Positions 2,392-17,288 of a stretch of DNA of 64,000 nt are shown in pieces. The DNA comes from Rhizobium sp. Q54 (GTDB lineage Bacteria > Pseudomonadota > Alphaproteobacteria > Micropepsales > Micropepsaceae), in NCBI GenBank assembly GCA_945860165.1, contig CAMAPL010000002.1, positions 1 through 64,000 on the forward strand. The letters run 5' to 3'. The position numbers and the translations under genes were made by a program. The notes below the pieces were generated by a model that saw only the letters and a list, made by a program, of their open reading frames with translations, ran no database searches and had not been told where the DNA came from. Every line of letters begins with the position of its first letter. Position 1 is the first letter of the stretch.

Positions 2392-3267
2392 TTAGGCGGG
2401 CTTGTTCAAGCGCCGTGTGAGGTCGTCCAGCTGTTCGAGGCTGGTATAGGTAATTTTCACCTCACCCTTGTCCTCACCCTTATTCACTCTGTGGGTGATG
2501 TAAACTTTCAGGCCCAAGACATTGGAAATACTGGTTTCCAAGGCTGTGATGTTGGGATCGCGGGGCGGTGGCGTTCCGGGATGCTTCCTGGCGTCCGAAC
2601 GGCGTTCAGCTTGGCGTACCGTCAAGTCGCTTGCCATCAACTCTTTGGCCAGCGCTTCGGGGTCAGGGACGCCAAGTACCGCCCGGGCGTGACCCGCCGT
2701 CAGCTTGCCCTCCCGCACCCATGTCTTGACGCTTTCCGGCAGTTTTAGCAGCCGGATCGTGTTGGCGACATGGCTGCGGCTTTTGCCAATCTCCTTGGCA
2801 ACATCTTCTTGGGTGCGCCCGAATTTCTGGATCAGGTCCTGATAAGCCGTTGCCTCTTCTATGGCGTTGAGATCGGCGCGCTGGACGTTTTCGATGATGG
2901 CGATTTCCAGCGCCTGGTCGTCGGCCAGTTCGCGCACCACCACCGGCACATCGTGCAATTTGGCGAGCTGAGCGGCGCGCCAGCGGCGCTCGCCCGCCAC
3001 GATCTCATAGCGGTCCGGGCCGATGGGCCGGACCAGGATGGGCGACAATACACCCACTTCCTTGATCGAGGCCGCGAGGTTGGCCAACGGCTCCTGATCA
3101 AAGGTCTCGCGGGGCTGGTAGCGCCCCGGTGTCAGAAACGCGATCGGCAGCGTGCGCGTATCTTTTTTGTTTACGGGCTCGCCCTTCACGGCGGCAACTT
3201 CATCGCCGATCAGCGCCGAGAGTCCGCGCCCCAAACCGCGCGGGCGATCCTGTGAGGGAGGATTCAT
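2392..3267 (-). CDS. parB: Chromosome-partitioning protein ParB
   Basis: ParB is the centromere-binding CTPase that loads at parS near oriC and, with ParA, segregates the origin. At 291 aa it shows the N-terminal ParA-interacting motif GLGRGLSALIG (11-21), the CTP-binding GERRWRA box (92-98) with ENVQRADL (126-133), a helix-turn-helix around 150-172 containing KSRSHVAN, and a C-terminal dimerisation domain. Its start overlaps the parA stop (ATGA), so the two form one operon downstream of rsmG. The DNA-recognition region reads as ordinary ParB, which matters for the unusual parS-like sites nearby. Confidence 0.97.
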   Translation of the reverse strand: MNPPSQDRPRGLGRGLSALIGDEVAAVKGEPVNKKDTRTLPIAFLTPGRYQPRETFDQEPLANLAASIKEVGVLSPILVRPIGPDRYEIVAGERRWRAAQLAKLHDVPVVVRELADDQALEIAIIENVQRADLNAIEEATAYQDLIQKFGRTQEDVAKEIGKSRSHVANTIRLLKLPESVKTWVREGKLTAGHARAVLGVPDPEALAKELMASDLTVRQAERRSDARKHPGTPPPRDPNITALETSISNVLGLKVYITHRVNKGEDKGEVKITYTSLEQLDDLTRRLNKPA

Positions 3268-4070: not shown

Positions 4071-4683
4071 GACGGGGACCCAGCTCTCTCACGGTCACTA
4101 TAGCACCCAACGGATCAGTCTGGCTCGGGGCCTGAGAGACCTGCATATTCCAATATTTAGTGGCTTCGGTCAATTCAGGTGCTAAATTTTGTCCTTTGAG
4201 GAAAAAGCAAACACTGTTCGGTCCGACGAAGCTGTGGGCGTAATCCAACAGCCGGGGCAGGGGGGCGCAGGCCCGGGCCGTGACGACGTCAAAGGCGCGG
4301 CGCGGCAATTCCTCCATCCGGGCATTCTCTATGGTGACGTGCAGGTCCATGCGGTCTGCCGCAGCTTGCAAGAATGCACATTTCTTGGCCGTGGCCTCGT
4401 ACAGCGTCACCGCGAGGTCGGGGCGCATTGCGGCCAGCACCAGGCCGGGAAAGCCTGCCCCCGAACCTAGATCAGCGAGGTTTTTGGCGTCTGGTGGAAT
4501 GAAGGGGGCCAGCTGGGCGGAATCCAAGAAATGCCGCCGCCAAAGGTCGCCCAAGCTGCTCTTGGAGACCAGGTTATGCCGGGCATTCCAGTCTGTGAGC
4601 AGATCGGCATAGGCCTCCAGCTTCGCCATTGTTTTTTGTGAAACATTCGCCTGCAGGGCGAATTCCTCAGGCACGAAAAGCAT
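4009..4683 (-). CDS. rsmG: 16S rRNA (guanine-527-N7) methyltransferase RsmG
   Basis: RsmG (GidB) methylates G527 of 16S rRNA with SAM. The SAM-binding loop [13 protein letters not shown] and the [10 protein letters not shown] segment are present. I chose ATG 4683 ([10 protein letters not shown]), which overlaps the mnmG end by 17 bases; the longer upstream extension is mnmG coding read in another frame. The protein has 224 aa, including about 20 basic C-terminal residues beyond the usual end near VRELGPR, all encoded within the start of parA. Its N-terminal NVSQKT peptide is encoded by the parS-like element at 4630-4648; many relatives have NVSRET here, the peptide a perfect parS encodes. Confidence 0.95.
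4630..4648 (-). promoter_or_regulatory. Degenerate parS-like site inside rsmG (copy 1)
   Basis: The plus strand reads TGTTTTTTGTGAAACATTC. On the minus strand this contains TGTTTCACAAAAAACA, which matches 13 of 16 bases of the parS consensus TGTTTCACGTGAAACA: one half-site is perfect and three bases of the other differ. An identical 19-mer occurs at 5108-5126 in mnmG in the same coding phase (NVSQKT). ParB binding is inferred from position and similarity only. Confidence 0.45.
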
Positions 4684-6544
4684 TTTTGGCCTTTTGACTG
4701 CCTTTGACAAAGGCCAGAACGAGGGTGAGGGCCGCGGCCGTGATGCCTTCGATACGGGCCGCCTGGCCCAAGGTGGCGGGACGGATACGTTCCAGCTTCT
4801 GGCGCACTTCATTGGACAGACCAATAACTGCGCCATAATCGAGATCGGCGGGCAGGGCGCGGTCCTCGTCGCGGCGGAAGGCGACGATGTCCGCATCCTG
4901 GCGGTCCAGATAACCGGCATATTGGGCGTCTATCTCCAGCTGCTCGACAATTTCGGGCTGCAACGAGCTGAGTTCGGGCCAAATGCGGGTCAGGGAAGTG
5001 AAGCCCGTAAGGCTCAAGAGCTCCAAGGCATTGCGGCGAACCCCGTCCAACCGGATGGCGATGCCGTGCTTGGCAGCCCCATTGGGAGTCAGGGTCAGTT
5101 CTGAAAGTGTTTTTTGTGAAACATTCAGCTGATCCAGCTTGGCAGCGAAGACGGCGGCGCGACCTGCGCCTACGATCCCCTCAGCCTCGCCAAGCCGGGT
5201 CAGGCGCTGATCGGCATTGTCGGAGCGCAAGGTCAGCCGGTATTCGGCGCGGCTGGTGAACATGCGGTAGGGCTCGGATACGCCCTTGGTCACCAGATCG
5301 TCGATCATCACCCCGATATAGGCCTGGGCGCGGTCCAGAATGACCGGCGCGGCGCCGCCTGCGGCCCGGGCGGCATTCCAGCCCGCCATAAGCCCTTGGG
5401 CGGCGGCCTCTTCGTACCCGGTGGTGCCGTTGATCTGGCCGGCCAGATAGAGGCCCGGCACAGACTTCACTTCCAGCGCGGGGGAAAGCTCGCGCGGATC
5501 AACATAGTCATATTCGATGGCATAGCCGGGGCGCTGGACCACGGCATTTTCCAGTCCGGGAATGGTGGCCAGAAGCGCGACCTGGACATCCTGGGGCAGG
5601 GAAGTAGAAATGCCGTTGGGATAGATGGTATTGTCATTAAGTCCTTCTGGTTCAAGGAAAATTTGGTGTGACTCCCGATCCGCGAAGCGGCTGACCTTAT
5701 CCTCGATCGAGGGACAATAGCGCGGGCCGGTCGAGGCGATCTGGCCGGAATACATCGGCGAGCGGTGCAAGTTGGCGCGGATCACGGCATGGGTGGCCAG
5801 GGTGGTGCGGGTGATGCCACAGGCGATCTGCGGGGTGGTGATCGCCTTGGTGAGAAACGAAAAAGGCGAGGGCGGGTCGTCGCCCTGCTGCATTTCCAGA
5901 GCAGCCCAGTCGATGGTGCGGCCGTCCAGCCGCGGCGGCGTGCCGGTCTTCAGCCGGCCCATGGCGAGGCCAAAGTCATAGAGCGTTTTCGACAATCCCA
6001 GCGACGGCGCCTCGACACCGTCTTCGACTTTCATGCGTCCGGCGGGAATTTTGGTCTCGCCGATATGGATCAGTCCGTTCAAGAAGGTGCCGGTGGTCAG
6101 CACCACCTTGCCGCAGGCGATCTCCTCGCCAGCGCCGGTCAAAACGCCGAAAACAATTCCGTCCTTTAAAATTAGGTCTTCGGCGGATCCCTCGCGAATT
6201 TCCAGAACGGAAATGCTGCGCAGCATGGATTGCATTGCTGCGCGGTAAAGCGCTCGATCTGCTTGCGCTCTTGGCCCCCTTACCGCAGGGCCCTTGCGCC
6301 GGTTGAGCAGGCGAAACTGGATGCCCGCCGCATCGGCCACCCGGCCCATCAAGCCGTCCAGCGCATCGATTTCGCGCACCAGGTGGCCTTTGCCGACGCC
6401 GCCGATGGCGGGATTGCAGGACATCTCGCCTAGGGTTTCGAATTTTTGGGTGAGGAGGAGAGTGCGGGCGCCAAAGCGCGCCGCCGCGCTTGCGGCTTCG
6501 CAGCCGGCATGGCCCCCGCCAATGACGATGACGTCGTACCTCAT
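4667..6544 (-). CDS. mnmG: tRNA uridine-5-carboxymethylaminomethyl modification enzyme MnmG (GidA)
   Basis: MnmG is the FAD-dependent partner of MnmE that installs the (carboxymethyl)aminomethyl group at wobble U34 of several tRNAs. With the start at ATG 6544 ([18 protein letters not shown]) it has 625 aa, the normal length. The FAD dinucleotide fold [11 protein letters not shown] is at the N terminus and the [21 protein letters not shown] signature follows. An open reading frame extends upstream, but those residues are not family-like. Here mnmE is not adjacent: an oppositely oriented glycosyltransferase lies between them, so mnmG probably has its own promoter in 6545-6626. A parS-like element is embedded in its C-terminal half. 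Confidence 0.97.
5108..5126 (-). promoter_or_regulatory. Degenerate parS-like site inside mnmG (copy 2)
   Basis: This 19-mer is identical to 4630-4648 and lies 478 bases from it in a different gene but the same reading phase, again encoding NVSQKT. Its codons (AAT GTT TCA CAA AAA ACA) are AT-rich compared with the surrounding GC-rich coding sequence, which suggests constraint on the DNA rather than on the protein. Confidence 0.45.
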
Positions 6545-14152: not shown

Positions 14153-15172
14153 TCAGTTCTTCCTGCAACCGCACAGACCGACCGTGCATCCACCCGGCTG
14201 TCCCGCCACAATTTCCGTCACCAGGGCGCGGCGTACAAGTCCCGCCAGGCCGGCGATGAAACCGGGATGGATGCCGGCGGTGGCGGCGCGGCGGTAATCG
14301 GGCACTCCCGCTTCCCCGGCCAGCTTGCGATACTCGATGTCCAACTCGACCAGGGTTTCGGAGTGCTCGCTGACAAAGGCGACCGGCGCGATGATCACGC
14401 CCTTGCCTTGCGCGCCAGCGCGGCGGATTTCATCGTCGGTGGACGGCCCGATCCATTCCAGCGGCCCGACCCGGCTCTGATAGCAGACCTGCGAGTCCAG
14501 CCCCGGCATGGCCAGCGCCGCGACAATCGCCGCGGCGCTCTGCTCCACCTGGCGCTGATAGGGATCACCCTTCTGGATGACGCGCTTGGGCAGGCCGTGC
14601 GCCGACAGCAGCAGGCGATAGGAAATGTCGCTGCGCGCACCTGCCATAGCTTCGCGGATATGCGCAGCAGCCGCCGCAATGAATCCGCTTTGCGTGGAAT
14701 AGCAGCAGATCTGTGATGTCGGCGTATTCAGTCCCGCCTTCTTCGCCGCCTGCGCCCAGTCCTGCAGCGACGAGGCGGTGGTGGTGGTGGAATATTGCGG
14801 ATAGAGCGGCAAAAGCACAATTTTATCGGCATCAAACGCCTTGATCGCCCGTACCGCGCCATCGCTGAACGGATGCCAGTAGCGCATGGCGACAAAGGCC
14901 CTGGCCTCGACGCCGTCCTGCGACAGGGCCGCTTCCAGCGCGTCGGCCTGCTTGCGGGTTTCCTCGAAGATCGGCGAGCGCCCGCCGATCTGGGCATAGA
15001 TTTCGCGCGCGACAGGCGCCCGGCGCCAGGCGATGAAGCGAGCCAGCGGCAGGCGAAAGATCGCGGGCAGCCCGATGATGGCGCGGTCGGAAAACAGGTT
15101 GCGCAGGAAGGGCTGCACCGCCTCGGGGCAATCCGGCCCACCGAGATTGAATAGAACGATTGCCAGCTTCAT
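14153..15172 (-). CDS. hemH: Ferrochelatase HemH
   Basis: Ferrochelatase inserts Fe(II) into protoporphyrin IX to make haem. At 339 aa it shows VLFNLGGPDCPE at the N terminus, LPLYPQYSTTT, the catalytic-histidine motif SAHGLPKR (H192) and SEHSETLVELD (H270). The C terminus GGCTVGLCGCRKN has three cysteines (329, 334, 336), and C156/C157 lie mid-protein. That pattern resembles the [2Fe-2S]-ligand set reported for Caulobacter-type ferrochelatases, although C-x4-C-x-C spacing differs from the form I recall. It overlaps the hemE stop by ATGA. Confidence 0.96.
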   Translation of the reverse strand: MKLAIVLFNLGGPDCPEAVQPFLRNLFSDRAIIGLPAIFRLPLARFIAWRRAPVAREIYAQIGGRSPIFEETRKQADALEAALSQDGVEARAFVAMRYWHPFSDGAVRAIKAFDADKIVLLPLYPQYSTTTTASSLQDWAQAAKKAGLNTPTSQICCYSTQSGFIAAAAAHIREAMAGARSDISYRLLLSAHGLPKRVIQKGDPYQRQVEQSAAAIVAALAMPGLDSQVCYQSRVGPLEWIGPSTDDEIRRAGAQGKGVIIAPVAFVSEHSETLVELDIEYRKLAGEAGVPDYRRAATAGIHPGFIAGLAGLVRRALVTEIVAGQPGGCTVGLCGCRKN

Positions 15173-16191
15173 CCGCGGATACGCTTAAGCAATTGCCCAA
15201 CATGGGCAATCGGCGTCTCGGGCAGGATGCCGTGGCCAAGATTGAAGATATGCGGCTTGCCTACGGTGGCTTGCAGAATGTCATCCACCGCCCGGTCCAG
15301 CGCCGCACCGCCCGCGATCAGGGCGATGGGATCGAGATTTCCCTGGATCGCACAGCTCAGATTCTTGGCGCCCCACCGCATCGGCGCCGAAGTGTCGAGT
15401 GACACCGCGTCCACACCGGTGGCCTGCACATAGGCTTCGTAGCCAGCCAGGGTCGCGGCACGGGGAAAGCCGATGATCTTCGCACCTGGCCTGGCGGCAC
15501 GCACCGCGGCGACAATTTTCCGGGTGGGGGCAATCACAACCTGCGCGAACAGGGCAGGGGGAAGGCCGCTGGCCCAGCTATCGAAGATCTGCACCGCATC
15601 GGCGCCCGCCTCCAGCTGGCGGATCAGGTGGAAGGCGACACACTCGCTCAAGATATCCAGAAGATATCCAAAGCCTTCCGGGTCCCGATACACCCACAGC
15701 TTTGCCGCCTTCTGCTCATCGCCGCCCGCGCCCGCCGCCAGATAGGTCGCCAGGGTCCAGGGGGCGCCGGCAAAACCCAGCAAGGCCGTCTCGTCCGCCA
15801 GACCGGCCCGCGTCAGCCGCAGTGCCTCATAGACCGGCTCGAAATAGGCCGCCCATTGTTCCCGGTTTTCGTTGAAACCCTTTGCCGAGGTCACCGGCGT
15901 CAGGCTGGGACCCTCGCCCGCCGTGAAGGTCACCTTCTGGCCCAGCGCCTCAGGTACCGTCAAAATGTCGGAGAACAGGATCGCCACATCAAAGCCGAAA
16001 CGGCGGATCGGCTGCAGGGTGACCTCGGCGGCATAGCGCGGGGACAGAGCCATCTCCCAAAACCCGCCGGCTTTCGCCCGGACTTCCCGATACTCCGGCA
16101 GATAGCGTCCCGCCTGGCGCATCAGCCAGACCGGCGGCACCTTTTCAGAAGTTCCTTCCAGAACACGCACAAGCTTGGCCGCACTACTCAA
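15169..16191 (-). CDS. hemE: Uroporphyrinogen decarboxylase HemE
   Basis: HemE decarboxylates the four acetates of uroporphyrinogen III to give coproporphyrinogen III. At 340 aa it has normal length with the signature PPVWLMRQAGRYLPEYRE, the catalytic-Asp segment ILFSDILTVPEALG and GFAGAPWTLATY. It is the first gene of the leftward unit hemE-hemH-hemJ. The gap between its start and the divergent ppsR start is the place where Caulobacter-type chromosomes carry oriC. Confidence 0.97.
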   Translation of the reverse strand: MSSAAKLVRVLEGTSEKVPPVWLMRQAGRYLPEYREVRAKAGGFWEMALSPRYAAEVTLQPIRRFGFDVAILFSDILTVPEALGQKVTFTAGEGPSLTPVTSAKGFNENREQWAAYFEPVYEALRLTRAGLADETALLGFAGAPWTLATYLAAGAGGDEQKAAKLWVYRDPEGFGYLLDILSECVAFHLIRQLEAGADAVQIFDSWASGLPPALFAQVVIAPTRKIVAAVRAARPGAKIIGFPRAATLAGYEAYVQATGVDAVSLDTSAPMRWGAKNLSCAIQGNLDPIALIAGGAALDRAVDDILQATVGKPHIFNLGHGILPETPIAHVGQLLKRIRG

Positions 16192-16466
16192 GCAAGACTC
16201 CTAGAATCCTAAGATGATGAAGATGATGTAAGGGCTGTTAGTTGTGGGTGAAAATGTGAAAGCGGCTTTTCATTAAGCCCAAGTCCGCATGGACTCAAGC
16301 ACTTGGCGAAGGACAGAGCGGGGCAGGGGGCTTGTCATACTGTGTTGACCGTTAACGATAGCGTCCCCAAACCATACCGGTTTGCACAGTTGCGGTTTTC
16401 CCGGCTAGGAGCCTGTGGTCAGAAACGGGCTTACACCCAGCCGGACCAAATTTTCGGGATAGTTCT
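16192..16466. other. Candidate chromosomal replication origin (hemE-ppsR intergenic region)
   Basis: This 275-base gene-free stretch lies between divergent hemE and the RP001 homologue, the position of Caulobacter Cori. It holds DnaA-box-like 9-mers: GTTTGCACA at 16380-16388 (one mismatch to TTWTNCACA), TGTGGATCA at 16466-16474 (reverse of TGATCCACA, one mismatch, overlapping the ppsR start) and weaker TGTGGGTGA at 16243-16251. GANTC sites occur at 16196, 16204 and 16292, with one more at 16500. Gene direction flips here and parAB is 12 kb away. It has no obvious AT-rich unwinding element and is shorter than known origins of this type, so the assignment rests mainly on synteny. Confidence 0.6.
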
Positions 16467-17288
16467 GTGGATCATAAATTTCACGTTTACCTCGTGTCGG
16501 ACTCTACTGGTGAGACCCTGCGCGCCATGGTCAATGCAGCCTTGGCCCAGTTCGAAAATGTCGATGTCCATGTCCATCCCTATGCCTTGGTCCGCAGCGA
16601 GCATCAACTGACCCGGGCACTGGATCATATCGCCATCATGCCGGGGATTGTGTTCTTGACCCTGGCCAACCAGGCGCTGCGCGACAAGCTGATCGCGCAC
16701 TGCAACAACATGGAAACCCGCGCCATCGATGTGCTGGAAGGCCCGGTTTTGGCGCTGCGGAAATTCCTGGGCAAAACGGAAACCCACAAGGTTGGCCGCC
16801 AGCACCAGGTGGACCAGCGTTACCTAGAGCGTATCGAGGTTCTCAACTTCACCATCGCCCATGATGATGGCCAGTCGCTGGAGACGATTGACGAAGCCGA
16901 AGTGATCCTGACCGGGGCCAGCCGCACCTCCAAGACGCCGACCTGCGTCTATCTCGCCATTCGCGGGCTCAAGGCCGCCAACGTGCCGCTGGTGCCGGGC
17001 CTGCCGCCGCCGCCCCAGTTGCTGGCCGCGAAGAAACCCCTGATCGTCGGACTGTGGGTGTCGCCCGACCGGCTGGTGCAGGTACGGCGCAACCGCCTCA
17101 ACACCATGGGCGAGACCCGTGACACCGATTATATCGAACCGGATGCGGTGCGCGCCGAAATAGCCGCCACTCGCCTGCTGTTCGAGAATAACGACTGGCC
17201 GATGATCGACGTGTCGCGCCGTTCCATCGAGGAAACCGCGGCGGCGGTGATGAACCTTTTAACCGAGCGCAAAGAGGCGCTTGCGTGA
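16467..17288 (+). CDS. ppsR: PPDK/PEP synthase regulatory protein (bifunctional kinase/phosphorylase, RP001 family)
   Basis: This 273-aa DUF299 protein reversibly phosphorylates pyruvate phosphate dikinase or PEP synthase on threonine using ADP and Pi, switching gluconeogenic flux. It starts FHVYLVSDSTGETL and has the P-loop-like GASRTSKTPT at 150-159 and PLIVGLWVSPDRLVQVRRNR. Start is GTG 16467, and a DnaA-box-like 9-mer overlaps it. Its stop overlaps maf (GTGA). It is the first gene right of the candidate origin, as RP001 is in Rickettsia and Caulobacter. Which dikinase it controls here is not shown. Confidence 0.93.
   Translation: MDHKFHVYLVSDSTGETLRAMVNAALAQFENVDVHVHPYALVRSEHQLTRALDHIAIMPGIVFLTLANQALRDKLIAHCNNMETRAIDVLEGPVLALRKFLGKTETHKVGRQHQVDQRYLERIEVLNFTIAHDDGQSLETIDEAEVILTGASRTSKTPTCVYLAIRGLKAANVPLVPGLPPPPQLLAAKKPLIVGLWVSPDRLVQVRRNRLNTMGETRDTDYIEPDAVRAEIAATRLLFENNDWPMIDVSRRSIEETAAAVMNLLTERKEALA

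Follow-up and report, generated by a model that had tools for sequence, protein, structure and literature searches.

A compact probable replication origin between hemE and ppsR, with a conserved candidate unwinding module, in a group of Alphaproteobacteria

The window analysed here comprises bases 1-64000 of contig C2 (230,657 bases) from an alphaproteobacterial genome of 2.48 Mb in 42 contigs, whose relatives are mainly metagenome assemblies from soil and freshwater; the named relatives include Rhizomicrobium electricum. Within it, hemE, encoding uroporphyrinogen decarboxylase (15169-16191, minus strand; PF01208, 346 bits), and ppsR, also designated RP001 or COG1806 (16467-17288, plus strand; PF03618, 291 bits), diverge from a gap of 275 bp at 16192-16466, which confirms the boundaries and gene orientation given in a preliminary description of this DNA. 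The neighbourhood includes rho, a UPF0093 gene, hemH and hemE on one side and ppsR, maf and aroE on the other; rho and aroE were identified from their translations and the remaining genes by Pfam. The left border gene, hemE, starts with TTG and is preceded by a Shine-Dalgarno-like AGGAG (CTCCT at 16198-16202 on the plus strand). A gap between divergent hemE and COG1806/RP001 is the arrangement that characterizes Cori-class origins, and the Caulobacter origin has been mapped between these genes (PMC1914354). Thirty gaps from the genus were aligned at first, and later 63 distinct sequences with further loci. Gap sizes in this family range from 179 to 310 bp with a median of 258 bp; in the smallest (locus L093, 179 bp) the module described below was not recognized.

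Several sites in the gap resemble DnaA boxes. The G-box at 16466-16474 on the minus strand (TGATCCACA) is an exact match to the Caulobacter type as defined previously (PMC4285127), and it overlaps the GTG start of ppsR. This overlap had been described before and stands, but the accompanying suggestion that it ties initiation to ppsR expression is unsupported. The ppsR gene starts with GTG in 50 of 63 distinct sequences. This GTG is usually part of a TGTG, which makes overlap between the start codon and a DnaA-box core common. At the other end of the gap, two overlapping box cores on the minus strand, TGTTAGTTG (16236-16244) and TGTGGGTGA (16243-16251), form a tandem at 16236-16251, and their TGTG and TTGTGG cores are almost invariant among relatives. 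The second of these, whose reverse complement is TCACCCACA, carries two mismatches to TTATCCACA and is indeed the weaker site it had been taken for. By comparison, the plus-strand site GTTTGCACA at 16380-16388, earlier credited with one mismatch, reaches that figure only under the relaxed consensus TTWTNCACA and has three mismatches to the strict TTATCCACA. A W-box-like TCCCCA lies at 16364-16369 on the plus strand, and such sites average 0.76 per gap in the family versus 0.19 in mononucleotide shuffles. The predicted DnaA sites of the gap are one exact G-box, one TCCCCA, and two-mismatch and relaxed boxes. Because a box with at most one mismatch to TTATCCACA or TGATCCACA is present in 8.6% of 300-bp windows of the contig, and two relaxed boxes in 1.7%, boxes alone are weak evidence for an origin. 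The three boxes named in the preliminary description do not make the case for oriC; it is carried by a module at the hemE end.

The preliminary description had called this end featureless, yet 16193-16251 is conserved more strongly than any other part of the gap in about 60 congeners. The hemE-proximal 60 bp, which on sequence grounds are likely to be the unwinding module, consist in order of AAGACTCCTAG, an A/T-rich stretch and GATGAAGATGATGTTAGGGCTGTGAGTTGTGG. Mean identity to the window over 29 congeners is 73% at 16208-16251, covering the triplet array and boxes, versus 33% at 16301-16450 and 52% at fourfold-degenerate sites of ppsR. Of 41 genomes, 16 have a single match to a degenerate pattern of the module core, located upstream of ppsR; all 16 are among the 25 genomes of the genus, and a reversed control pattern gave zero matches. 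A profile from which the window and two of its closest relatives had been withheld gave one significant match on the contig, at 16209-16249 (E=1.8e-6 in 1.53 Mb); the next best match anywhere had an E-value of 1.5.

By nearest-neighbour duplex stability, the gap is weakest over the 40 bp at 16193-16232, a predicted DNA unwinding element. This segment ranks among the least stable 0.08% of the contig and has 62.5% AT versus 37% for the contig, so the earlier statement that an AT-rich element is not evident was wrong. The 40-bp stability minimum falls at the same place, inside the module, in 55 of 59 relatives.

Within this element, the plus strand carries the in-phase triplets AAG ATG ATG AAG ATG ATG (16211-16228), which resemble DnaA-trios and are a candidate for the DnaA-bound strand. 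Comparison of 60 relatives shows that, in these triplets, G and T are kept far better than A. The tandem box cores begin 7 bases past the array. This order, with an unstable AT-rich stretch, a triplet array, a short G-rich spacer and tandem DnaA boxes of which the distal one is better, is that of the basal unwinding system (BUS) with DnaA-trios known from Bacillus subtilis incC (PMC6669920, PMC8287927). The distal box, TCACCCACA at 16243-16251, has two mismatches and lies 14 nt from the array end at 16228, within the BUS bounds of two mismatches and 16 nt. However, in the phase set by the fixed G the window triplets read 3′-GTA-5′ (plus-strand ATG) rather than the 3′-GAT-5′ of the BUS. The central position in this phase is T, and a central adenine occurs only in AAG or in the shifted phase GAT GAT GAA GAT GAT. 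We therefore describe the layout as BUS-like and do not assert membership in that class.

A predicted housekeeping-type promoter, TTGAGTC-13 bp-GCTTAAT, is located at 16272-16298 on the minus strand and points leftward through the boxes and triplet array towards hemE. The motif TTGAGTC-N13/14-GCTTAA or CCTAGA is matched perfectly in 29 of 59 relatives, and neither the opposite strand nor any of 20 shuffling rounds gave a match. Since the motif was composed after inspecting the sequences, the shuffle result shows how well it is conserved and should not be taken as an independent test of its discovery. The -35 element of this promoter contains one of three GANTC sites (GAGTC, 16292-16296), the others being GACTC at 16196-16200 and GAATC at 16204-16208. 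These three give the gap a density of 10.9 per kb versus 1.64 per kb in the contig, and at least one GANTC lies on the side of the gap that holds the second site in 58 of 62 relatives. Enrichment extends to the family as a whole (mean 3.03 per gap versus 1.22 expected) and is also seen in Caulobacterales and Hyphomonadaceae (4.47 versus 2.06). The window genome encodes GcrA, as well as a candidate CcrM-type methylase, a protein carrying the RAMA domain that is known from CcrM. Paired CtrA boxes (TTAA-N7-TTAA) are absent from the window gap and occur at chance level in the family (0.08 per gap versus 0.06 expected), although ctrA is present in the window genome.

The same promoter could be read differently, with the module serving as the promoter and leader of a hemE-hemH operon regulated by haem or DnaA while replication starts elsewhere. 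The promoter is well conserved and points into hemE, and hemH follows even at loci that have no hemE; a limited literature search found no paper on the hemE promoter. In several congeners hemE is gone from the locus and hemH adjoins the module. In the seven of them that were searched (G011, G021, G014, G024, G009, G027 and G028), a hemE of about 50% identity resides elsewhere, which looks like replacement by a distant copy. The module nevertheless stays at ppsR in all seven, and a profile search found it at none of the seven relocated hemE genes. Moreover, the module transcript folds no better than shuffled sequences (z of 0.0 and 0.55) and matches no Rfam family above its gathering score, and we rejected a leader RNA or riboswitch on these grounds. 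Layouts similar to the module also occur beside ppsR in other alphaproteobacterial families, where an AT-rich stretch, TAG/TGG/TTG triplets and often a TGTGG box can be made out by eye, unscored, near hemE. These data are compatible with regulation of hemH, so some weight stays with an operon leader, but we consider it improbable.

Features at the scale of the chromosome were examined for further indications of where replication starts. The core domain of parB (2638-3162, minus strand; TIGR00180, 207 bits) lies 13 kb from the gap, and two identical asymmetric copies of a parS-like sequence, TGTTTTTTGTGAAACA, are found in the window at 4630-4645 and 5108-5123. Together parB and these sites occupy a region 11-14 kb from the gap that is syntenic in congeners, with parB at a comparable distance from ppsR in three congeners and consensus parS in four. 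As for the sites themselves, among six other congeners that have them, five carry the consensus TGTTTCACGTGAAACA at matching spacing where the window has TGTTTTTTGTGAAACA, and G015 (L221) has a different asymmetric pair, TGTTTCACGAAAAACA, again with both copies identical.

The GC-skew analysis that had been proposed as a check was run on contig C2 and, separately, on a 26% sample of the complete congener G027, and it gave no usable origin signal. G027 shows no significant two-arc pattern (154 of 300 permutations were as good), and its cumulative skew has a maximum, not a minimum, near the hemE locus, partly because skew correlates negatively with coding direction (r = -0.40). Correcting for coding direction puts the optimum at 1.25-1.3 Mb, again without significance. 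On C2, where only one side of the locus is visible, the skew takes mildly positive values rightward of it, a pattern that would be compatible with an origin at the left. GC skew is known to be insufficient for locating the origin in several alphaproteobacteria (PMC1914354). Gene-strand bias in G027 favours 3.35-3.80 Mb, a range that includes the locus, but lies within the null range. An E. coli-type dif pattern had no match in four genus members and one match in another family, and the single 16S rRNA copy of G027 is too few to serve as an orientation marker.

An origin near dnaA would leave the hemE locus as old synteny only. The gene (L041; G000:C7:49366-50829) sits in a dnaA-dnaN-recF-gyrB neighbourhood on contig C7, and origins lie near such clusters in many other phyla. 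The weak, non-significant skew of G027 favours a position at 1.25-1.3 Mb; dnaA lies at 0.91 Mb. Against this, the dnaA-dnaN gap contains no relaxed box, and the surrounding 20 kb hold just one near-match box and no box cluster. The parB gene and parS sites, in three and four congeners respectively, sit at the hemE locus instead, and strand bias in G027 is -0.030 for dnaA versus +0.067 for the hemE locus, both within the null. An origin at dnaA is thus very unlikely. The encoded DnaA retains the RPRQ and GGRDHTTVLHA motifs of domain IV. Its AAA+ domain scores 127-140 bits against PF00308 in the genus (135-138 in the window genome) versus 181-242 bits in three other alphaproteobacterial families, and the residue matching Asn187 of B. 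subtilis is arginine, as judged by eye in an alignment to 8btg.

An ordinary bidirectional promoter region in which DnaA-like 9-mers arose by chance would accord with the near-chance frequency of the boxes (8.6% and 1.7% of windows), but this reading is extremely improbable given conservation of the module above that of fourfold sites, its single copy, its instability (lowest 0.08% of the contig) and the enrichment of GANTC and W-box sites.

We conclude that the hemE-ppsR gap at 16192-16466 is very probably the chromosomal origin, oriC, on the combined evidence of synteny and an independent conserved module. The proposal of an origin at this place thus holds, through synteny, the single-copy module and nearby parABS, while the anatomy first given to it, with its stress on boxes, does not.

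At such an origin, DnaA would bind the tandem box cores at 16236-16251, aided by weaker sites towards ppsR (the W-box-like site at 16364, the site at 16380 and the G-box at 16466). A DnaA filament could then extend from the cores onto the plus strand of the triplet array at 16211-16228 and melt the unstable segment 16193-16232, where the helicase would be loaded. Leftward transcription from 16272-16298 would cross the module and may assist melting, and the GANTC-bearing -35 element could couple this promoter to CcrM methylation and GcrA. CtrA would not be expected to act at the gap through its usual paired site.

Comparison with established and predicted origins places this gap within a known class. 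CtrA boxes in Cori-class origins are a feature of Caulobacter and are not universal in the class; they average 1.88 per gap in 17 Caulobacterales and Hyphomonadaceae loci, in contrast to 0.08 in this group. The gap shares with Cori of Caulobacter crescentus identical flanking genes and their divergence, the G-box TGATCCACA and a TCCCCA W-box-like site, although the window has one G-box and Caulobacter two. parABS is within about 14 kb here, and Caulobacter parS lies within 8 kb of its origin (PMC4468827). The group's gaps are also shorter, with a family median of 258 bp and 275 bp in the window versus a median of 460 bp at 21 other alphaproteobacterial loci. The predicted origins of Rickettsia and Wolbachia (PMC1914354) likewise occupy a gap linked to hemE or COG1806, with DnaA sites and AT content above that of the genome. 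However, these belong to AT-rich genomes, most have CtrA boxes, and in Wolbachia COG1253 replaces COG1806.

The hemE-RP001 origin class is known, and what is newly described are details of this lineage, namely compactness, the lack of CtrA sites and variant triplets. A specific, rather doubtful extension is that the lineage uses a variant mechanism, in which DnaA would open the origin on a 3′-GTA-5′ triplet code, not 3′-GAT-5′, matched by a divergent AAA+ domain, and initiation would be tied to CcrM and GcrA by a GANTC promoter transcribing across the unwinding site, at an origin that lacks CtrA sites. The family offers a compact set of origins (179-310 bp) in about 60 aligned sequences, in which conservation by itself is enough to delineate the probable unwinding module. 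It would thereby serve as a natural experiment on how much alphaproteobacterial origins can differ in the DnaA-trio code and in control by CtrA and CcrM.
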